Notes under the pieces: generated by a model | The model's database searches: none | What the model was told of the DNA's origin: nothing | What the model saw: only the letters and a program-made list of their open reading frames with translations | Origin: Symmachiella macrocystis | GTDB lineage: Bacteria; Planctomycetota; Planctomycetia; Planctomycetales; Planctomycetaceae | NCBI RefSeq assembly: GCF_007860075.1 | Contig: NZ_SJPP01000002.1 | Coordinates: 1,240,001 to 1,304,000 of the forward strand | Length of the DNA: 64,000 nt | Direction of reading: 5' to 3' | Made by a program: the position numbers and the translations under genes | Part shown: positions 51,809 to 64,000 of the stretch, piece by piece | Position numbering within the stretch: the first letter of the stretch is position 1 | Layout of the letters: each line of letters begins with the position of its first letter

Positions 51809-54800
51809 TTATTGCACGAGGATTTCCGGGGGTGTTTTTCGCGATGCGTTGATTGCGCGGTCGACGTTGTTCTCAAGGCCGTTGAGCACGGTTTCGTCCA
51901 AGACTTCGACCATCAACCGCTGAACGTACTTGTAGACATCCCAGTAGCCGTCTTGGACGCCGTCCACAGCGCGATTGACTTTCGGAGCGCCGAGCACGGT
52001 GTTGCGGCCAACTTTATCAGAGATTTTTTCATCAAGCCGTGTCCCTCGATTTTGCAACCAATCGACGACGCCATTCGCACGGTACATATTCCCCGACGAC
52101 GTCAAACTATAGTCTCCTAGCGAGACCTCTGAGACGTTCAGAGCATGGGTCCCTTCGGTGACCCACTTGTGACGGGATCGCCGACCGCGACGTTCGATGC
52201 TGTTCACCGCTTTTGTAACCGGCTTCTTTTTGTCTTTGCCGGGAGCGAAGGCATCGTCTACCAATCGAAAGACGCTCCAATCTCCGACGGTCAAAGCGTT
52301 GTAAGCGATGTTGTTGACGTCCCAGGGGCTGCCGGGGCGATTGACGGAGATTGGTTTTCGATCAAATTCGGGAACCGGCGCATAATCCAGTTTGTCCCAT
52401 GCCTGCAGGTCCACGTCGCGCCAATGCACCGGCGTATCGTCGGCTGACGGTTCCGCTGCAGCGGTCGTGAAGACGGTGCGACGGACTGTTCCTTCAAACC
52501 ATTCTGGACGTGTCTTGACCGAAGCCATCGTCAAGATCGTGGGTGTCAGGTCGGCCAAACGGGCTGGTTCGTGAATCCGCGCGCCGCGACGAATATTCGG
52601 TCCCGACACGTACCAAGTGGCCCGCACCGCATCGGCCAATGGGTAACCGTGCGTCGTTCCGGGTGTGTTCTGCGTTCCGAAAAACCAACCATGCCGGGCT
52701 GTCACGACAAGATCGGGGGCGTATTCTTGCTCACGGACTTTGAGGTGATCTTGCCACAACATATGCCGAGTGAGCGTCACCACGCCATCGGGATATTCGG
52801 TCGGCGCCGTCAGTTGCAGCCACTTTTCCTCATTGTGGTAGTAGGTAAAGTACTGCGGCCAGACTTCCTGCAGCAGTTTGAGCGGATCGGTTTTGGGATT
52901 CTCCACGACATCGAATTCGGCTGCGCCATTTGCGCCGGGACGGACATTGTTGACGACCGTATAGCGATACTCCCAGCCCCCTTTTTTGCGTTCCCGCCGG
53001 TCAATGATCGCCTGTCCGCGGTCCGCCGTGGTGATCAGGATCGAACGATCATCCAGTTTCATCAACGCTAAATCGACAGGGTTTTGTTCTTCCCCCGCAT
53101 GGTTGACCGCTCGCGAGCTGACGATGTATTGCGGTAAATCGACCGCCGGTAAATGCGGGGCGATTTGGTAGGCCAATAAATCGGCCGGACGGTTGGGGCC
53201 GCTCCAATCTCCCGACTGATAATTTCCTCTGGGCAAAAAGATGCGTGCGGCCCCGTCGGAATTTCCGTCGACATAAACCATCTTGTCTTTGGTATCGCCG
53301 GTGTGCCAGTTCTCTAATCGGTGTTGTCGCACCGAGAGACCTAACCCGCCGCCGAGCCAACGGCCGTCGGCTGTGACTTCCCGTTCGCGGAATAACAGTT
53401 CATGCACCAGATCGTACCGCGTCAAATGGGTCTTGCGGCCTCCCAGATGCCCATGGTCGCTGACCAACACGAGATACGTATTCTGCAACCGTCCCTGCGC
53501 CCGCAGTTCTTCGGTCACATCTCCCACGAGAACATCCGCCATGGCGATTGTTTTACGCGTCGTGCCAAATTGTCCGCGACAATACTTGTGGCTGACAGAG
53601 TCGGTCTCGGGCAGCCAGATCACCGTCAGCGGCTGTTCGCGATTGAGCAAATGCCGGACAGCGAAGTGCGCGTTGGCATCGTCGATATATCGCCAAGCCT
53701 GATGAGCCTGGAAATAGGGCAAATTCCGCGCGAGACTTCGTGTCCACATAGACGGAGGTGCATCAGTCATGATGGGCAAAACTCCGGTCGCCCAATCGTT
53801 CCCCTCGACGCGGAGGTAATCATAAACCGCTGGAATGCCGGTCCGTTTTGAGGACTTCCAACGAATCTCTGCTTCGTTGCCCTCGAAATAACCCACCGAC
53901 GCAGCCTGGGCATTGTGTATTAATTTGTCCGTCCCGTGCGGCCGCAGAAGCCTTGATGTCCGACTGGGGCCCATGGGATCCAAACCGGACTCCGATTCCA
54001 GCCGTTGCCTGCTGAAGCGAATTTGCCCCTTGATGCCATGCCGGTCGGAAAAACATCCGGTCCACATCGTTCCGTTGGAGGTGATTGTATCGGAGGGAAA
54101 CGCGGTAAAGGTGTTCCGCATGTGTGTTCCGCCGTCGATAAAATGTTCCGTCAGATGCGGTACATGGTGCATCGCCGACATTTCTTCCAACACGTCGGGC
54201 CGCAGTCCATCGACGTAAAACACAACCACGGAACATCCCGCCGCCGGTAGCCCTTCCGGTGCGTCGCGGCGAACATCCTGCCGGAACGACACGGGCTGCA
54301 CGGTGTCGGGTTTGGAGACCTCGACATAGAATTCACCGGAATTGTCGGTCAGATCGAAGTCGTTGACGCCCAAATACAAGCGGCCGGTCGACTCAGCCGC
54401 AATGCTCATTCCGTCGCCGACAAAAAACGGACGTCCCTCGCCGATACGGCCGATCAGGCAATAACAAGGCGCCGGTCCGCTGCCCGCTGCCGGCAAGGGG
54501 AATTCTTGATGCCCCTGAGAATCGTCGTAGAAAAAAGTCCCCGCCGGTCCCGCTTCGGATTGCTCGATTTCCTGCTCGGTTTGGGGAATGAGATGGCGAA
54601 TTTTCCCGTGTGCCACCAACGTCACCGATTCTCCCGACTGCACGTCCACACCGCTATCGACCCATTGGGCATTGGCAGGCACGACCAAGGCATCTCCCGA
54701 AACACCGCGCATATCACACGTCAATTCAGGCACGGCAACGTCGTGATGACAACCACTACTCAAAGCGCATAACCACAGACAGACCACAACTCCAAGAGCT

Positions 54801-54850
54801 GCTGTCGTCCTATGTACGAGAGCGCGTTCGGCGGCGGGGGTGAATAACAT
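51809..54850 (-). CDS. lipoprotein phosphodiesterase/alkaline-phosphatase-superfamily, LecA-like N-terminus
   Basis: 1013 residues. Lipoprotein signal with LSSGC lipobox (near 30-34). Residues about 40-190 resemble the PA-IL/LecA lectin domain (VPANAQWVDSGVDVQSGESV, MSIAAESTGRLYLGVNDFD). From about 210 a type I phosphodiesterase/nucleotide pyrophosphatase domain: VVFYVDGLRPDVLEEMS, FPSDTITSNG (Thr nucleophile), LPETDSVSHKY and VSDHGHLGG metal sites. A further catalytic segment near 735 (VTARHGWFFGTQN) ends in PTILTMASVKTRPEWFEG. The C-terminal 170 residues are unassigned. Probably cell-surface phosphodiesterase/phosphatase bound to a glycan. Confidence 0.82.
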   Translation of the reverse strand: MLFTPAAERALVHRTTAALGVVVCLWLCALSSGCHHDVAVPELTCDMRGVSGDALVVPANAQWVDSGVDVQSGESVTLVAHGKIRHLIPQTEQEIEQSEAGPAGTFFYDDSQGHQEFPLPAAGSGPAPCYCLIGRIGEGRPFFVGDGMSIAAESTGRLYLGVNDFDLTDNSGEFYVEVSKPDTVQPVSFRQDVRRDAPEGLPAAGCSVVVFYVDGLRPDVLEEMSAMHHVPHLTEHFIDGGTHMRNTFTAFPSDTITSNGTMWTGCFSDRHGIKGQIRFSRQRLESESGLDPMGPSRTSRLLRPHGTDKLIHNAQAASVGYFEGNEAEIRWKSSKRTGIPAVYDYLRVEGNDWATGVLPIMTDAPPSMWTRSLARNLPYFQAHQAWRYIDDANAHFAVRHLLNREQPLTVIWLPETDSVSHKYCRGQFGTTRKTIAMADVLVGDVTEELRAQGRLQNTYLVLVSDHGHLGGRKTHLTRYDLVHELLFREREVTADGRWLGGGLGLSVRQHRLENWHTGDTKDKMVYVDGNSDGAARIFLPRGNYQSGDWSGPNRPADLLAYQIAPHLPAVDLPQYIVSSRAVNHAGEEQNPVDLALMKLDDRSILITTADRGQAIIDRRERKKGGWEYRYTVVNNVRPGANGAAEFDVVENPKTDPLKLLQEVWPQYFTYYHNEEKWLQLTAPTEYPDGVVTLTRHMLWQDHLKVREQEYAPDLVVTARHGWFFGTQNTPGTTHGYPLADAVRATWYVSGPNIRRGARIHEPARLADLTPTILTMASVKTRPEWFEGTVRRTVFTTAAAEPSADDTPVHWRDVDLQAWDKLDYAPVPEFDRKPISVNRPGSPWDVNNIAYNALTVGDWSVFRLVDDAFAPGKDKKKPVTKAVNSIERRGRRSRHKWVTEGTHALNVSEVSLGDYSLTSSGNMYRANGVVDWLQNRGTRLDEKISDKVGRNTVLGAPKVNRAVDGVQDGYWDVYKYVQRLMVEVLDETVLNGLENNVDRAINASRKTPPEILVQ

Positions 54851-56798: not shown

Positions 56799-58283
56799 TT
56801 ATCGTGGGCCGATTTGGGATCTCGGAACGCTGCGGCGTTTGCGGTTTTGGATTTGATTCACGCTGGGGGGTTTGCGCCGGGCGTCGGCGATCCGCTCGTT
56901 GAGTTGCTTGGACAGCTGTAGGGCCAACTCGGCGAACTCCGGCTTGTTGGCCAGATTGACCATCTCCTCTGGATCCGTTTCGTGGTCATACAGTTCGGCA
57001 CCGGCTTCTCCGTCGGGCCCCCAGTGCGTGTAGCGGTATCGTGGCGTGCGAATGCTGTATCCGGAGTCGTATTGTGTCAGTGCTGAATCGCGTGGAGATT
57101 GTGTCGGATCTTTCAGCACCGGCACGAGGCTGACGCCGGGCAAGTAGTCCGGCGGCGTTAGACCGGTCATTTCGGCCAACGTGGGGTAGAAGTCGATCAT
57201 TTCGGTGAGCGCACTGGTGCTGGCTCCTTTGGCCGTGACACCGGGGCCGGCGATGATCAACGGCACACGCGCCGCATTTTCAAAAAGCGTCGTCTTCTGA
57301 TAATGACCATGTTCTCCCATGTGATATCCGTGGTCCGACGTAAACAACACGATCGTATTGTCCGACAACCCGGCTTCATCCAGCGCATCGAGTATGCGGC
57401 CGACTTGGGCGTCGGCGAAGGTGATCGAGGCGTAATAGGCTTGAATTGCTTGGCGAGCGAGTTTGTCAGGCAGGTTTGAGTTTTGCTTTTTTCGCCGAAT
57501 CGCACGGACCGCTGGTTTGGGGAGTGTTTCCAGATAGCCGTCTGGGACAGTCGGCACGCGGATCTTGTCCAAGGGATACATGTCGAAGTATTTCTTAGGA
57601 GCCACGTAGGGCGTGTGCGGACGATAGAGTCCGACCGCTAAATAGAACTGCCGTTTGTCAGCCGAATACGTCTGCAACAATTCCGTGGCGTTCGTGGCAG
57701 CGATGCCGTCGGTCTGTTCTTCATCGGTCCCCTCAGCGGCCAACCAACTCATCGTTCCGCCGAACTGGCCCGGAATGAGACTGTAGATCATATCCTCTTC
57801 GTCTTTATCGCGACCGCGAGGATTGATGGTGTAATCCCAGGAGAACGGATCATCATGTCCGCTGGTGCCGATGTGCCGGGGGACGCCGTAATGATAGATC
57901 TTGCCGATTCGCGTGGCGAAATGTCCCTCATTGCGGAACATTTGTGACATCGTTTTTACATTCGGGACAGTTTCGCGAATGTAGACGCTGTTGCGATGAA
58001 TTAAGGTCTGATCGGGATACAACCCGGTCATGAACGACGCGCGGCTGGGTCCGCACAATGGGTATTGGCAGTAGGCGTTAGAAAAACGGACGCCTCGCTG
58101 CGCCAACCGATCGATGTTGGGTGATTTGACTTGCGGATGCCCATAACAACCGAGATCGCAATTGAGGTCATCGCAAATCAAAAACAATACATTCGGTTTG
58201 TCGGCATCGGCGGCTGCGAGAGATCTGGCGTCAGCCACAATCGCGAACAACACGCCGAACAGAAGAACCAGGGGAACGCGCAT
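56799..58283 (-). CDS. sulfatase
   Basis: 494 residues with a signal peptide (VLLFGVLFAIVADARSLAAA). Seen: NVLFLICDDLNCDLGCYG (metal-binding Asp pair), the formylglycine motif LCGPSR with Cys77 that must be oxidised for activity, TSDHGYHMGEHGHYQKTTLFE and YDHETDPEEMVNLAN. The pattern is closest to iduronate-2-sulfatase-like enzymes, which act on sulfated glycans. Planctomycetes carry many such genes. The C-terminus is basic. The sulfatase-modifying enzyme is not in the window. Confidence 0.93.
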   Translation of the reverse strand: MRVPLVLLFGVLFAIVADARSLAAADADKPNVLFLICDDLNCDLGCYGHPQVKSPNIDRLAQRGVRFSNAYCQYPLCGPSRASFMTGLYPDQTLIHRNSVYIRETVPNVKTMSQMFRNEGHFATRIGKIYHYGVPRHIGTSGHDDPFSWDYTINPRGRDKDEEDMIYSLIPGQFGGTMSWLAAEGTDEEQTDGIAATNATELLQTYSADKRQFYLAVGLYRPHTPYVAPKKYFDMYPLDKIRVPTVPDGYLETLPKPAVRAIRRKKQNSNLPDKLARQAIQAYYASITFADAQVGRILDALDEAGLSDNTIVLFTSDHGYHMGEHGHYQKTTLFENAARVPLIIAGPGVTAKGASTSALTEMIDFYPTLAEMTGLTPPDYLPGVSLVPVLKDPTQSPRDSALTQYDSGYSIRTPRYRYTHWGPDGEAGAELYDHETDPEEMVNLANKPEFAELALQLSKQLNERIADARRKPPSVNQIQNRKRRSVPRSQIGPR

Positions 58284-58527: not shown

Positions 58528-59367
58528 TTATTTCAGAGCGGTGATTGCGCTGTTGCTATTCACTTGCACCTCCGTACTACGGGCTTCATTCAGTAACCGG
58601 TCGATGAATTTCTTGGCAGCGATGTAATCGGCGGCTGACATTTCAGCGACTTGAAACCGCAATTGCTCTCGCATGTAGGTGGCCAATTCGTTGACGTCGC
58701 GGTGCAGGTTGGTGCCGGCTCCCGATTCTTTTGTTGTGGGGTTAGCGAAGATTTGTTCAAAAGCGATGCGGTAGTCTTCGAACTGTGAGTCGAGCAGGAC
58801 TTCCGGCCACTCAATTTCGCCGGTCAGGCGATTGAACTCGTCATCATCCAAACGATTCTCCGTCTTTTCGCGTGAGCTTTCTCCGCGTGCTTGGGGACGG
58901 CCTGGGCGGCTCAGTCGGGCGTTTTGACGTTCCCGCCATTGCCGTTTTAACTCGTACCGCGTTTCGACGCTCAACCGATGATTTTCGATGGCCTTTTGGC
59001 GAGCCTCTTCGAGGTTGATCAAGGCTTCTGATGTATTACGGTTGAATTCGCCCAATGAACGAATCACTTCAGCTTCGCCGACCAGCGGATCGACAACGAA
59101 TCCTTCGTCGATCGGGGCGAATGGATCGCTCACAAATCCTACCCGCGGCCCGTAGCCATAATCATATCCGTAGTGACGGCCATAACGGTGCCCGCGGTGA
59201 TGTCCGTGATGTCCGTGATGTCGACCGTGGTGACGGCCATGATGACGGCGGCCTTGCTGACCACGACGGCCGCCACCGCGACGTCCACCCGTTTTGGAAT
59301 CGGCTTCGGCCACATTCAATAGTGTCAGGAGGCAAACAATAGCAGTCAGGTGAATGAGAGTTTTCAT
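58528..59367 (-). CDS. secreted His/Gly/Arg-rich protein
   Basis: 279 residues from ATG 59367 (AAAGGGATG upstream), signal peptide LIHLTAIVCLLTLLNVAEA. Residues 26-70 are low-complexity: GGRRGGGRRGQQGRRHHG then repeated HGRHHG/HGHHGHH units and YGYDYGYG. The remaining 200 residues are helical, with SLGEFNRNTSEALINLEEAR and TRYELKRQWRERQNARLS. His tracts suggest metal binding; no family recognised. Own terminator downstream. Two further leftward genes, also with a terminator each, lie upstream. Confidence 0.7.
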   Translation of the reverse strand: MKTLIHLTAIVCLLTLLNVAEADSKTGGRRGGGRRGQQGRRHHGRHHGRHHGHHGHHRGHRYGRHYGYDYGYGPRVGFVSDPFAPIDEGFVVDPLVGEAEVIRSLGEFNRNTSEALINLEEARQKAIENHRLSVETRYELKRQWRERQNARLSRPGRPQARGESSREKTENRLDDDEFNRLTGEIEWPEVLLDSQFEDYRIAFEQIFANPTTKESGAGTNLHRDVNELATYMREQLRFQVAEMSAADYIAAKKFIDRLLNEARSTEVQVNSNSAITALK

Positions 59368-59651
59368 GGCATCCCTTTGGGGTCGTGATCGAGTCTGATT
59401 GTGGGTGGGGGAGAAAATGTTTTGTGTTTGCTCTACTCGGTAATGCCCGTTTCCAGCAGCGACACGCCACGGTTTGGCAATTTTTGGCAGAGAATTTTGA
59501 TTTCGCCGGAGAAACCATTGTGTGGTCGTCAACCAGCTACGTCTCCAAGCGTAGTTCCGTCGCAAATGTTGCAGTGCGAATCCAAATAAATGCAGTGGCC
59601 AGCAGCCCCCCGAAGATGAAATCGCCGCAACCCCTTACCTTGATACGACAT

Positions 59652-59719: not shown

Positions 59720-60709
59720 TTACGCTTTGGCGAACAGCAGTCCCTGGGCACCCGGTTGAGCGTCTTTCATCAGGAATCGCCATGTGCCGTTGTTGTACCA
59801 AGTGAAATAAGCTTCCAACTTGTCCGTTTCGCTCATCAGCAACGTCAGATTGTTTCCAGCCAACGTGTAGCGGCCAACGGACTTGTCGGTCTTCGAATCA
59901 TGCACGTGGTAGAGCACAAAGCTCCCGTCGGCGTTTAGGGTCAGCTGAAACGTCGAATTATCCGGTGCGGTCGACCGCCATGTGCCAACGTGTGCCGGTG
60001 TCGATTGCGGTTGAACCGGGGCTTGCGGCGTTTGTTGTTGAACCTGCCGTTGTTGCGTCTGCGGCTGTTGGGCCGTTTGCCATTTCGTGTGGTTCCACAA
60101 GTCTTCGTTGTTGATCGCCAAGTCAGCCAAGGTTTCGATGACTTGCTTCACTTCCGCCGGATTCAGGCCGTCGTTTTCCAAGGCTCGGCAAACGTAAATC
60201 CGCCGGGTCTTTTCGCTGTAGGCAAAGTGAATCGGGCCGTATTGATGGTTAAAATTCAACATCTTCTGCATTTTTTCAGCAGGAATCGATACGCCTTCTT
60301 GCAGCGTGTTCAGCGACAGGGTGACCCAAAATTGGGCCTTGTTGGGGCTGATTACGAATGCGTAAGGCAGGTTCCATTCCCCTTTTTTCAAGGTGGTCTT
60401 GAAGACCCCGTCGCCCAGATCCTCGGATTGATACCCCATCAGCATCAGGAAATTCGGGATTTCCGCAGGTTCCAACGCCCGGCTTTGTGGTTGCGTTTGG
60501 GTGGGTGGTTGTTGCGGGGGTACGGGTTGCACCGGAGTTTGTTCCGGCGGACTTGGTGGTGTTGCGGTTTGTGGTGGCGCGGGATTGAAGACTTGTTTCA
60601 AGCTGTCGGAAGAAAACAGGTCGTCCGCTGCGGGAGTTGATGTCGCCGTGCACAACAGGGCTGTGGCAACGCAAACGGTGGTCGTCAGTCGAATGAAAAT
60701 TTGTCGCAT
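59720..60709 (-). CDS. secreted YbjN/CesT-fold-like protein with beta-barrel-like tail
   Basis: 329 residues from ATG 60709 (GAGGTGAA upstream), signal peptide LTTTVCVATALLCTATSTPA. A Pro/Gln/Thr-rich linker (about 40-78), then a domain (about 80-205) with EIPNFLMLMGYQSEDLGDG and LPYAFVISPNKAQFWVTLSL resembling the YbjN/type III chaperone fold. A second PQQ-rich linker, then a small beta domain (about 245-325) starting GTWRSTAPDNSTFQLTLNAD and including GRYTLAGNNLTLLM, like lipocalin-type META/DUF domains. Both assignments are by pattern only. Confidence 0.65.
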   Translation of the reverse strand: MRQIFIRLTTTVCVATALLCTATSTPAADDLFSSDSLKQVFNPAPPQTATPPSPPEQTPVQPVPPQQPPTQTQPQSRALEPAEIPNFLMLMGYQSEDLGDGVFKTTLKKGEWNLPYAFVISPNKAQFWVTLSLNTLQEGVSIPAEKMQKMLNFNHQYGPIHFAYSEKTRRIYVCRALENDGLNPAEVKQVIETLADLAINNEDLWNHTKWQTAQQPQTQQRQVQQQTPQAPVQPQSTPAHVGTWRSTAPDNSTFQLTLNADGSFVLYHVHDSKTDKSVGRYTLAGNNLTLLMSETDKLEAYFTWYNNGTWRFLMKDAQPGAQGLLFAKA

Positions 60710-61025
60710 GGGGTTCACCTCGTTGGGGGTTTGGGTCTGTCGGTTTTTGGTTTTGTTTGTGGTGAGGAGCAACTGTTTGCTCCCTCTACCCAGTGAAGCG
60801 GAGTGACCCCAAAAGCGTTACAAGACATCTTGAAACCGACTGATACCCGAGAGGTGAATTCGCCGTAAGCGACTATGCGACAATACATTACGAATCGCCA
60901 ACTAAATCAATGAGTGCGTGCGTTTGCTACACGATCGGGGCGGTGCAGCGCACAAGAAGCCGTCGTTGCGGGGTGAATTGCCGGCTACTGGCGTAGGAAC
61001 TCACTAAGCGCAGCCGCATGCGGCG
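60710..61025. other. intergenic, nothing recognised
   Basis: 316 bp between two leftward genes: promoter of the gene at 60709 and end of the LRR transcript. No clear terminator behind the last LRR gene. Confidence 0.4.
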
Positions 61026-61868
61026 TTATTCCGCTGGGGGCGTCCAACGGATGTTACAGACGGGTAGGACTTTTTGAAGTTCATTGATCCCGGCTTGCGT
61101 GACATGAGTTTTTTCAACGTGCAGGTCTACAAGGTTGGTCAACCTGCGAAGATGCTCAAGTCCGACATCACTAACTTGGGTGTTATTCAGTGTTAAGCGT
61201 TGCAAGTTGGTCAGCTTGCCGAGTTCCTTGAGACCGCCATCATCGACGCGAGTGTTGCTGAGGTACAAACCATCAAGGTTCGTCTGCCCGCGAAGATGCG
61301 CAAGCCCTGCATTGCTGATTTGAGTATCGCTAAGATTAAGGCTAAAAAAATTAGTCGTCCCGCAAAGTCGCTCAAGCCCCACATCGCTGACCCGAGTGTT
61401 TGTGAGATTGAGGACCTCAAGGTGAGGCAGTCCACTAAGATACTTAAGACCGGCATCGCTGATTTGAGTCTCTGCAAGTGAAAGTCCTTCAAGCTGGGGC
61501 AACCCCTGCAGACGATTGAGCCCCGCATCGCTGATATGTGTATTCTCAAGGGATAATGTCTCAAGGTGTGGCAGCTCTTGTAGATGCTCAAGACTCGCAT
61601 CACGAATAGGGAAATAGCTGAAATCCACGTCTCTGACTCGGTGGAAAATTTCCAAAGACCGATCAGGCACTACTCCCGGTATCCAGGCAGGTCGAACAAC
61701 CACCTCATAAGTGGTTCCGTGGAGTCGTTCAATCTCTGCGACCGCCGTTTGATTGCGGTGATACGGTAACCAAACCGTCAACGCTCCCCCACCGATTAGT
61801 AACACCACGGCCATGAACAAAAACGTGCCCGTGCGCGGCAGTCGGCTTTGGATGGCGGAGGCGGTCAT
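61026..61868 (-). CDS. membrane-anchored LRR protein 1 (7 repeats)
   Basis: 280 residues from ATG 61868, GGAGAGG upstream. A short basic N-terminus, one membrane segment (TGTFLFMAVVLLIGGGALTV), a 60-residue spacer, then seven 24-residue leucine-rich repeats of the form LxxLxxLxxLxxLxLxxTxVxDxG (e.g. LEHLQELPHLETLSLENTHI). A fixed tail, CNIRWTPPAE, ends the protein. LRRs of this kind bind proteins; the site would be periplasmic. Last gene of a four-gene head-to-tail array with gaps of about 31-32 bp. Confidence 0.88.
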   Translation of the reverse strand: MTASAIQSRLPRTGTFLFMAVVLLIGGGALTVWLPYHRNQTAVAEIERLHGTTYEVVVRPAWIPGVVPDRSLEIFHRVRDVDFSYFPIRDASLEHLQELPHLETLSLENTHISDAGLNRLQGLPQLEGLSLAETQISDAGLKYLSGLPHLEVLNLTNTRVSDVGLERLCGTTNFFSLNLSDTQISNAGLAHLRGQTNLDGLYLSNTRVDDGGLKELGKLTNLQRLTLNNTQVSDVGLEHLRRLTNLVDLHVEKTHVTQAGINELQKVLPVCNIRWTPPAE

Positions 61869-61899
61869 GGAAATCCTCTCCTGTGTCCGTAACTCGGCG

Positions 61900-62670
61900 T
61901 TATTCCGCTGGGGGCGTCCAACGAAGGTCACAACCGTGCAGGGATAACCGTAGTTTCCAGTATCCATCTTGCGTGACTTGAGTGTTGCTGACAGAGAGGT
62001 ATCTGAGGGTCGTCAGTTTACAGAGCGACTCGACCCCGATGTCGCCGACTTGTGTGTTTTTCAGCGAGACGGCCACAAGATTGTTCAATCCGCTGAGATG
62101 CGTAAGTCCTGTACCAGTGACCTGAGTATCATCCAGCGAGAGGAGTTGAAGTTTGGTGAGACCTTGCAGATGCTCAAGTCCGGCGTCAGACACTTGCGTG
62201 TTTTTCAGGCTCAGCCATTGCAGGTTGGTCAACTCCCGCAGGTGCTCAAGCCCGGCATCAGTGACTTGGGTCTGATCCAGTGAGAGGTCCCAAATCTTTT
62301 TCCGTTTTCGCAGTTGCTCAAGCCCCGCGTCGCCGACTTGTGTGTTGTTGAGAATCAGAATCTGCAGGTTGGTCAATCTGCTAAATTGCTCAAGCTCAGC
62401 ATCACCGACTAGGGGACCGGTCAAATTGATTGCGTCGATTCGCTCGAAGTGGAGCAAATATCCATCATCGACTGCCTCAGGAATCCAGCGGGGACGCACA
62501 ATAGCTGAGCGTGTGAATCCCCCCAGTTTATCAATTTCAGCGATTGCCACTTGTTCGCAATGATACGGCCACCAAACAGCCAGAGCGGCCCCCCCCACCG
62601 ACAACAGCACGACGATGAGCAGAATTACGCGTTTGCGCGGCAGTCGGCGTTTGGGGGTGGATTCGGTCAT
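61900..62670 (-). CDS. membrane-anchored LRR protein 2 (6 repeats)
   Basis: 256 residues, paralogue of LRR protein 1: basic start (MTESTPKRRLPRKRVIL), one membrane segment (LLIVVLLSVGGAALAVWWPY), spacer, six 24-residue repeats (e.g. LEHLRELTNLQWLSLKNTQV), conserved tail CDLRWTPPAE. Weak Shine-Dalgarno. Thirty-one bp separates its stop from the next start, so the array is probably one transcript. Confidence 0.88.
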   Translation of the reverse strand: MTESTPKRRLPRKRVILLIVVLLSVGGAALAVWWPYHCEQVAIAEIDKLGGFTRSAIVRPRWIPEAVDDGYLLHFERIDAINLTGPLVGDAELEQFSRLTNLQILILNNTQVGDAGLEQLRKRKKIWDLSLDQTQVTDAGLEHLRELTNLQWLSLKNTQVSDAGLEHLQGLTKLQLLSLDDTQVTGTGLTHLSGLNNLVAVSLKNTQVGDIGVESLCKLTTLRYLSVSNTQVTQDGYWKLRLSLHGCDLRWTPPAE

Positions 62671-62702
62671 GGGAAACGCTCAAGAGTACTAGTGGTTCGG
62701 CG

Positions 62703-63401
62703 TTATTCTATTGGAGGTGTCCAATTGATGTAACAATCTGGTAAGGCTTTTTGGAGTTTCTCGATTCCGGATTTTGTCACTTGGGTATTTTGGACAGATA
62801 GAGCTTTAAGACTAGTGAGTCGGTGGAGATGAACTAGTCCGGCATCACTAACTTGGGTAATTTTGAGCACCAGCTCTCTAAGTTGGGTCAGGTCGCGAAG
62901 TTGTTCAAGCCCGACATCGCTCACTAGTGTATTGCCGAGATGCAGTGACTTGAGGTTTGTCAGGCTGCCCAGATGCTCAAGTCCCGCATCGCCGATTTGG
63001 GTGTTATTGACGTACAGCCATCCCAGGTTGGTCAAGCCGCTGAGATGCTCAAGCCCAGCGTCGGTGATATTAGAGTCTGTCAGACGCAGTTGTTTCAGTT
63101 GGGTCAGTCCGTCGAGATGCTTCAGAACGACATCACTAAGGTGGGTCTCAGATAAGTTAACTCTCTCGACTCTCTTAAACACTACCAAGTACTCATCATC
63201 CACGGTATTTGGAATCCAGAAGGGACGAATGATCCTTGAATCCGTTGACCTTCCGATACGTTTCACCTCAGCCATCGCCGTTTGATTGCGATAATACGGC
63301 AACCACACCATGAACGCCCCACCTCCAACCAACAAAACCACAGCAATGAGCACCAGTGTACCCGTGCGAGGCAGACGGCTTTTGTTGGTGGTTTTGGTCA
63401 T
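62703..63401 (-). CDS. membrane-anchored LRR protein 3 (5 repeats)
   Basis: 232 residues, third paralogue: MTKTTNKSRLPRTGTLVLIA, membrane segment to about residue 31, spacer with the family motif PFWIPNTVDDEYLVVFKRVE, five 24-residue repeats (e.g. LEHLSGLTNLGWLYVNNTQI) and tail CYINWTPPIE. It is the shortest member. Thirty-two bp separate it from LRR 2. Confidence 0.88.
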   Translation of the reverse strand: MTKTTNKSRLPRTGTLVLIAVVLLVGGGAFMVWLPYYRNQTAMAEVKRIGRSTDSRIIRPFWIPNTVDDEYLVVFKRVERVNLSETHLSDVVLKHLDGLTQLKQLRLTDSNITDAGLEHLSGLTNLGWLYVNNTQIGDAGLEHLGSLTNLKSLHLGNTLVSDVGLEQLRDLTQLRELVLKITQVSDAGLVHLHRLTSLKALSVQNTQVTKSGIEKLQKALPDCYINWTPPIE

Positions 63402-63451
63402 GGGAAACGCTCAAGCGTGTTCTTGGTTCGGCGTTATTCTGCTGGTGGTGT

Positions 63452-64000
63452 CTATCGAATGTAGCAAGGACAGGCTTGTTTGAGTTTATCGATCCCGGCT
63501 TGCGTCACGTGAGTGTTTTCGAGTGAAATCTGAATGAAGTGGGTCAGCCCGTGAAGATGCTCAAGCCCCGCATCACTGATTTGTGTGTTGTTGAGCGATA
63601 GCTGATCAAGTTTGGGAAACCCATGAACATGCTCAAGCCCTGCATCACTTATTTGTGTGTTATCGAGCGATAGCTGTACTAGTTGGGGCAATTTTTGAAG
63701 ATGCTCAAGTCCAACGTCGCTGACTCGGGTATCGTTGAGATTTAGACTGTTTAGATTTGACAATCCTCGAAGATGCTCAAGCCCAGCGTCGCCGACGTGG
63801 GTATCATCGAGATCTAGATAAACCAAGTTGGTCAACCCCCGGAGAGACACCAGCCCCGAACCGCTGATCTGAGTGCCACCCAGCCGAAGTTTCGAAAGGT
63901 GATTCAGCCCTCGAAGCGACTCAAGCCCTGCATCACTGACTTGGGTATTGTTGAGATCTAGATCTTCGAGGTTGGTTAACCCTTGGAGATGCTCAAGCCC
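63452..64000 (-). CDS. LRR protein 4, 5' part outside the window, 3' tail truncated by TAG
   Basis: Open from the window edge; 182 codons visible, holding at least seven 24-residue LRR units (e.g. LEHLQGLTNLEDLDLNNTQV). Its tail reads CYIR then TAG (63452-63454), then TPPAE and TAA (63434-63436). In its three sisters the codon at the TAG position is TGG (Trp), so the gene has a nonsense codon six codons before its ancestral stop. The N-terminal anchor and start are beyond the window. Otherwise intact. Confidence 0.85.
   Translation of the reverse strand, partial: GLEHLQGLTNLEDLDLNNTQVSDAGLESLRGLNHLSKLRLGGTQISGSGLVSLRGLTNLVYLDLDDTHVGDAGLEHLRGLSNLNSLNLNDTRVSDVGLEHLQKLPQLVQLSLDNTQISDAGLEHVHGFPKLDQLSLNNTQISDAGLEHLHGLTHFIQISLENTHVTQAGIDKLKQACPCYIR

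Follow-up and report, generated by a model that had tools for sequence, protein, structure and literature searches.

Tandem array of membrane-anchored LRR genes in Symmachiella macrocystis CA54, with gene content different from that of S. dynata Mal52

Six neighbouring genes for membrane-anchored LRR proteins were found on the minus strand of the marine planctomycete Symmachiella macrocystis CA54; four of them touch the window (the whole 64,000-nucleotide stretch that was analysed, positions 1240001-1304000 of contig 2 in the 7,574,949-bp genome). With a probability of roughly 60%, we regard them as lineage-expanded binding proteins in a tandem array whose mode of evolution is gene birth and death and whose members hold stable specificities. 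Planctomycete LRR proteins are abundant and functionally unexplained. Here, two related genomes that carry the array between the same flanks reveal its breakpoints, the part that is reshuffled (genes more than units) and the part that is conserved (the binding face of orthologues).

Layout of the array and architecture of its proteins

The ORF list contained three complete LRR genes at positions 61026-64000 on the minus strand; of a fourth, only the 3' part lies within the window (Table 1). The original prediction of four head-to-tail LRR paralogues was confirmed by ORFs, Pfam and the unit scan, and so was its suggestion that the array may run past the window: extension of the contig gave six genes over 4.7 kb, with g5 (8 units) and g6 (4 units) outside. 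In the direction of transcription, the order is rhaB, g6, g5, g4, g3, g2, g1 and a TIGR03066-like gene. The outermost gene, g6, starts 39 bp after rhaB; g1 is the last gene of the array, and the TIGR03066-like gene borders the array in both CA54 and Mal52.

Table 1. Coordinates of array genes, g1 sub-features and the downstream flank (window positions)
Feature	Positions	Strand	Basis
g1, LRR gene, 280 aa: 77-aa anchor/spacer, 8 units, WTPPAE tail	61026..61868	-	ORF, Pfam, unit scan, AlphaFold
g1 N-terminal 77 residues: basic N-terminus, one TM helix, LRR N-cap spacer with RP.WIP motif	61638..61868	-	alignment, unit scan, model
g1 conserved 5' coding end (MT..I.SRLPRT), example of the RLPR-coding end common to array genes	61834..61868	-	gene-start alignments
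g2, LRR gene, 256 aa, 7 units	61900..62670	-	ORF, Pfam, unit scan
g3, LRR gene, 232 aa, 6 units	62703..63401	-	ORF, Pfam, unit scan
g4, 297 aa, 9 units	63452..64345 (window ends at 64000)	-	ORF, unit scan, Mal52 alignment
Downstream flank, weak TIGR03066 match, outside the array	59720..60772	-	ORF, family-model match

Pfam LRR_4/LRR_8 models were matched by all three complete genes. The LRR_4 scores (73.1, 46.6 and 54.0 bits, against a curated cut-off of 27) place them in the LRR family, and E-values from 1.5e-20 (g1) to 3.5e-12 show that the array is not a product of chance. The start of g1 is likely to be 61868, behind a AGGAGAGG motif; a start at 61967 was rejected, because the longer ORF call overruns into the preceding gene.

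Each gene is a cassette that opens with a near-invariant 5' end (MT.TTPKSRLPRT) and a hydrophobic segment; an LRR N-cap spacer then leads into 3-16 exact 24-aa units, and a C-cap closes it. Gene-start alignments showed invariant or near-invariant residues that include the RLPR motif and, within the spacer, P.WIP. The 24-residue unit scan found all units to be 24 residues long, contiguous and without irregular spacing in g1-g4, and the distance from the anchor methionine to unit 1 is exactly 77 residues in every array gene; unit number is therefore the chief length variable. The predicted series of 5, 6, 7 and at least 7 units had the right progression, but each count was one short, the degenerate first unit having been left out. 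Counted with that unit, as everywhere here, g1-g6 have 8, 7, 6, 9, 8 and 4 units, and the predicted difference between genes in the number of 24-residue units is borne out. The range in close family members of CA54 and Mal52 is 3 to 16.

The 77-residue anchor/spacer is kept in all the genes, as had been predicted, but the WTPPAE tail is missing from the g4 protein: its frame stops at a TAG (63452-63454) inside the C-terminal tail (...CYIR-TAG, versus ...CYIRWTPPSE in Mal52). This TAG stands where Mal52 has a tryptophan codon, and the C-cap is shortened in CA54.

The N-terminal region has the features of a signal anchor, with a basic N-terminus, one hydrophobic helix and a soluble domain behind it. 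Invariant R9 and R12 are followed by about 20 apolar residues, modelled as a single helix (13-48). In the AlphaFold model of g1 (pLDDT 89.3, pTM 0.81), this N-terminal helix precedes an LRR solenoid to which each unit contributes a strand and a convex helix; the model and the structure comparison agree on a solenoid whose concave side is lined by LxxLxL strands. The best matches among solved structures were LegL1, FBXL2, InlC2 and the Chlorobium Roco LRR (Z 21-23 over 210-214 residues); as modelled, the fold is an ordinary LRR fold that hints at no particular ligand. The proteins end 10-11 residues after the last unit, with no further domain according to Pfam and the model. Judged solely by the positive N-terminus, the topology would be N-in/C-out, which would place the solenoid in the periplasm or at the envelope. 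In other genera, frames of 700-930 residues likewise match the spacer half of the anchor (model positions ~38-81); from these alignments, that half seems to be a general LRR N-cap that is separable from the membrane anchor.

LRR genes were observed 21-39 bp behind unrelated same-strand genes (aconitase, a 216-aa ORF and rhaB), with no visible terminator, and may be expressed as tails of these upstream operons. Operon membership is read from the 20-40 bp spacing only, since a promoter/terminator scan gave no sites above the level of shuffled sequence. An Rfam scan of the window from 56 to 64 kb gave no matches, and the plus-strand ORFs that overlie the array were interpreted as antisense to its repeats.

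Gene turnover between the CA54 and Mal52 arrays

The closest relative compared is S. dynata Mal52 (one contig, 7,767,809 bp), on strong though indirect grounds. The array comparison covers one genome per species, namely these two close species and a third congener, MAG IP29b_bin.173. In Mal52, the same flanks (rhaB and the TIGR03066-like gene) enclose six genes with 6, 12, 8, 4, 10 and 7 units, four of which are orthologous to CA54 genes (g2, g4, g5 and g6). Two genes in each array are without a partner (g1 and g3 in CA54, A and B in Mal52), and two orthologues stand in swapped order, g6 before g5 in CA54 and g5' before g6' in Mal52. In a tree built from the anchor, the spacer and unit 1, whose bootstrap had not settled, six CA54/Mal52 pairs (g2, g4, g5, g6 and two single genes elsewhere) were supported and the rest unresolved.

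Three CA54 genes are mosaics, with upstream sequence and body from different genes: the upstream sequence of g6 corresponds to Mal52 A (95%) and its body to g6' (97%), that of g5 to g4' (97%) and its body to g5' (92%), and that of g4 is nearest g6' (85%) with the body corresponding to g4' (96%). One 922-bp match at 94% spans g5 and stops at nt 42 of the following gene. Affinities are also mixed in g3, whose first 45 nt are nearest Mal52 A (96%) and whose last unit and tail are nearest Mal52 B (79-81%), and no unit of the Mal52 array has more than 75% identity to g1. The mismatch of upstream sequence and body in three genes implies that crossovers fall in the conserved anchor-coding 5' end. The simplest reading of these alignments is that neighbouring genes crossed over there, where all are alike (MT.TT.KSRLPRT). 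Chimeric junctions and copy-number differences at a syntenic site are what defines arrays evolving by unequal crossing-over, and both were found. The predicted recombination between genes is thereby upheld, by different gene content between the same flanks, by swapped order and by chimeric 5' ends. The rearrangements between the two species could be old.

Unequal homologous crossing-over would be the mechanism. Cassettes that each reach from about nt +30/+45 of one gene as far as the corresponding position in the next have been duplicated, lost and reordered as wholes, and the CA54 order may have arisen by a g5-g6 duplication with subsequent deletions on both sides. An occasional crossover between 72-bp units within a gene adds or removes units.

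The units themselves are more stable. In five of the six orthologous pairs, unit number and order are unchanged, and the sixth (g4) differs by one exact 72-bp unit. By unit-by-unit comparison, unit k matches unit k across species, g4 being the exception; g2 and its orthologue g2' (7 units, 82% amino-acid identity, Ks 0.39) are colinear one by one. The orthologue of g4, g4', has 10 units: the extra 72-bp unit is in Mal52, and unit 5 of CA54 resembles a fusion of Mal52 units 5 and 6. In Mal52 gene B, units 2-3 and 4-5 are identical in DNA (144-bp tandem copies, 100%), and units 7 and 11 of a 12-unit gene are 98.6% identical; similarity between paralogous 72-bp units of CA54 does not exceed 81%. 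Recombination between repeats, also predicted, therefore occurs, as the 72-bp change in g4 and the 144-bp copies in B attest, but infrequently: units recombine less often than whole genes, and unit shuffling is the lesser process. The outcome that had been named beforehand as counting against ongoing recombination, the same unit number and order in relatives, is absent at the level of genes and nearly holds at the level of units. Free movement of units between genes was ruled out, the orthologues being strictly colinear by unit.

Selection on the binding face and alternative explanations

Ka/Ks was 0.20-0.31 in the six LRR orthologue pairs, against 0.02-0.10 in seven neighbouring genes. No class tested had a Ka/Ks above 1, with paralogues near saturation. 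Pooled Ka over five pairs was 0.073 for the TM part, 0.054 for the spacer, 0.024 for the unit core, 0.030 for the exposed strand and 0.053 for the rest of the unit. For orthologues, the predicted pattern of conserved anchors and tails with varying repeats is contradicted by these values: the anchor evolves no more slowly than the units.

Among paralogous units, the exposed strand positions 2, 3, 5 and 7 had an entropy of 3.1-3.8 bits and position 8 of 2.3, with convex positions at 2.2 or less; this concave hypervariability may be partly saturation. The ratio of concave to convex amino-acid differences was 0.70 in orthologues (bootstrap 0.39-1.09), and 1.63 and 2.08 in nearest paralogues of the two species. 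Concave residues thus differ among paralogues but are retained thereafter; this speaks for a set of stable specificities more than for a face in constant change. The changeable binding face of the original prediction survives as variation among paralogues, in which the concave residues are the most variable, but not between orthologues, in which they are conserved; with Ka/Ks at 0.20-0.31 in all six pairs, the predicted selection for changeability has to be scaled back. The concave beta face, at residues that differ between paralogues, would bind different partners, and each established paralogue would then hold its face under purifying selection. As to ligand and function, which we infer, our guess is that the partners are algal or neighbour surface polymers or proteins, CA54 being a kelp isolate.

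The array might instead be a neutral repeat family that undergoes unequal crossing-over through its repetitiveness alone and rides upstream operons cheaply, with no selection for diversity. We hold this to be possible though on the unlikely side. Unequal crossing-over alone does explain the gene changes, the Ka/Ks of 0.2-0.3 exceeds that of the neighbours as it would under weak constraint, and the site is empty in a congener, so that the array is dispensable. However, open frames, exact 24-residue periodicity and the same low Ka/Ks speak for a maintained function, and drift alone would predict something other than concave residues that are conserved in orthologues and divergent in paralogues when convex ones are not. 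A bolder reading, which seems to us unlikely, is that of a bacterial repertoire system: the anchor-coding 5' end would double as a recombination handle through which in-frame LRR cassettes could be swapped, lost or duplicated and could also pass between species. Each strain would thus have its own set of envelope receptors with different concave faces, much as the LRR receptor clusters of plants and jawless fish function.

Both arrays could also have been mainly acquired or replaced from other Symmachiella-like strains and not rearranged in place, which we consider quite improbable as the main process. It would account for the Ks to Mal52 of g4, g5 and g6 (0.10-0.14, against 0.22-0.33 in flanking genes and 0.39 in g2), a comparison that comprises three genes only, with lower third-position GC; from these values it is possible that the g5-g6-g4 block was exchanged between the lineages after their split. 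The absence of the array from the third congener and the occurrence of other LRR loci in one species only point the same way. Yet both genomes have the same insertion point and the same junction after rhaB (95% identity upstream), g2 at the far end has a genome-like Ks, so that part of the array is old, and the swapped combinations of upstream sequence and body all use sequences that the other array contains as well. Import is compatible with local crossover. Frequent, somatic-like rearrangement that generates variants within one population is hardly credible, even though the identical 144-bp copies in Mal52 B and the common 5' ends offer homology for recombination: the five colinear pairs have held unit number and order over Ks 0.1-0.5, the limited similarity of paralogous CA54 units makes them poor recombination substrates, and an incidental reading of the genes around the array noticed no dedicated recombinase, inverted repeats or template-variable pairs.

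The reading as binding proteins with stable specificities leaves named stable orthologues (g2, g4, g5 and g6), for which it can be asked what the proteins bind. The comparison also opens the question of whether gene sets differ among strains from different surfaces.

Known systems and other loci of the family

Listeria internalin clusters (the inlGHE / inlC2DE / inlGC2DE island and the inlAB region) vary in content by strain or species at a fixed site (PMC2867954, PMC3019230). The array resembles them as a tandem cluster of bacterial surface LRR proteins with varying gene content at a fixed site, and also in fold, with InlC2, InlF, InlH and InlA among the best structural matches. Internalins belong to Gram-positive bacteria and have secretion signals, mostly wall anchors and typically 22-residue units; the array proteins, in contrast, have units of 24 residues with a convex helix, and their membrane anchor is N-terminal. 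Against a cut-off of 1600, NCBIfam internalin models reached at best 44.9 bits, by the repeats alone, and the marks of class 1 internalins (N-terminal cap, Ig-like inter-repeat region and LPXTG wall anchor) were not found by Pfam, unit scan or model. The array is a well-resolved planctomycete case of the kind known from internalins, and its particular feature is the anchor-coding end as crossover zone.

The Leptospira LRR proteins LIC10831, LIC11098 and LIC12759, members of an exported LRR-only family in a diderm, are further structural matches. They gave no sequence family match above cut-off and, as far as tested, do not have anchor, unit length or array dynamics in common with the array proteins. 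In plant NLR/LRR receptor clusters and lamprey variable lymphocyte receptors, the concave face varies between paralogues and clusters turn over by recombination. The array would work in a like manner, as read here from sequence alone, except that the CA54/Mal52 orthologues are stable.

DAGL-type repeats are common to the array and other planctomycete LRR proteins, and DAGL-type LRR matches were present in all 30 relatives searched; what differs is the expansion of anchor-plus-cassette arrays in Symmachiella. The anchor was matched in 43 of 170 genomes of the family, with 21, 26 and 19 members in CA54, Mal52 and the MAG, against 0-12 elsewhere. The literature searched, which leaves out most subscription journals, held no paper on planctomycete LRR arrays.

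In MAG IP29b_bin.173, the array site is empty: the TIGR03066-like gene comes directly after rhaB, without an intervening LRR gene. At the aconitase site, two genes in CA54 (6 and 5 units) correspond to three in Mal52 (9, 9 and 6), and at C2:1179k a 7-unit gene of CA54 stands opposite a 16-unit gene; the flanks of both sites align at about 86-95%. The upstream flank of a Mal52 pair with 4 and 5 units had no real match in CA54. At the locus of a Mal52 12-unit LRR gene, CA54 has unrelated sequence of about 670 bp with a 160-codon ORF that has no Pfam match; this marks a variable site.

Sulfatase-type genes are usual for planctomycetes, and two lie downstream of the array: one for a 1013-aa phosphodiesterase/sulfatase-like protein (window 51809-54850) and one for a 494-aa sulfatase with an SGSH_C domain (window 56799-58283). 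Between the latter and the TIGR03066-like gene, window positions 58528-59565 encode a protein without Pfam match that has a His/Gly/Arg-rich stretch, GRRHHGRHHGRHHGHHGHHRGHRYGRHYGYDYGYG, and is conserved in Mal52 and MAG IP29b_bin.173.
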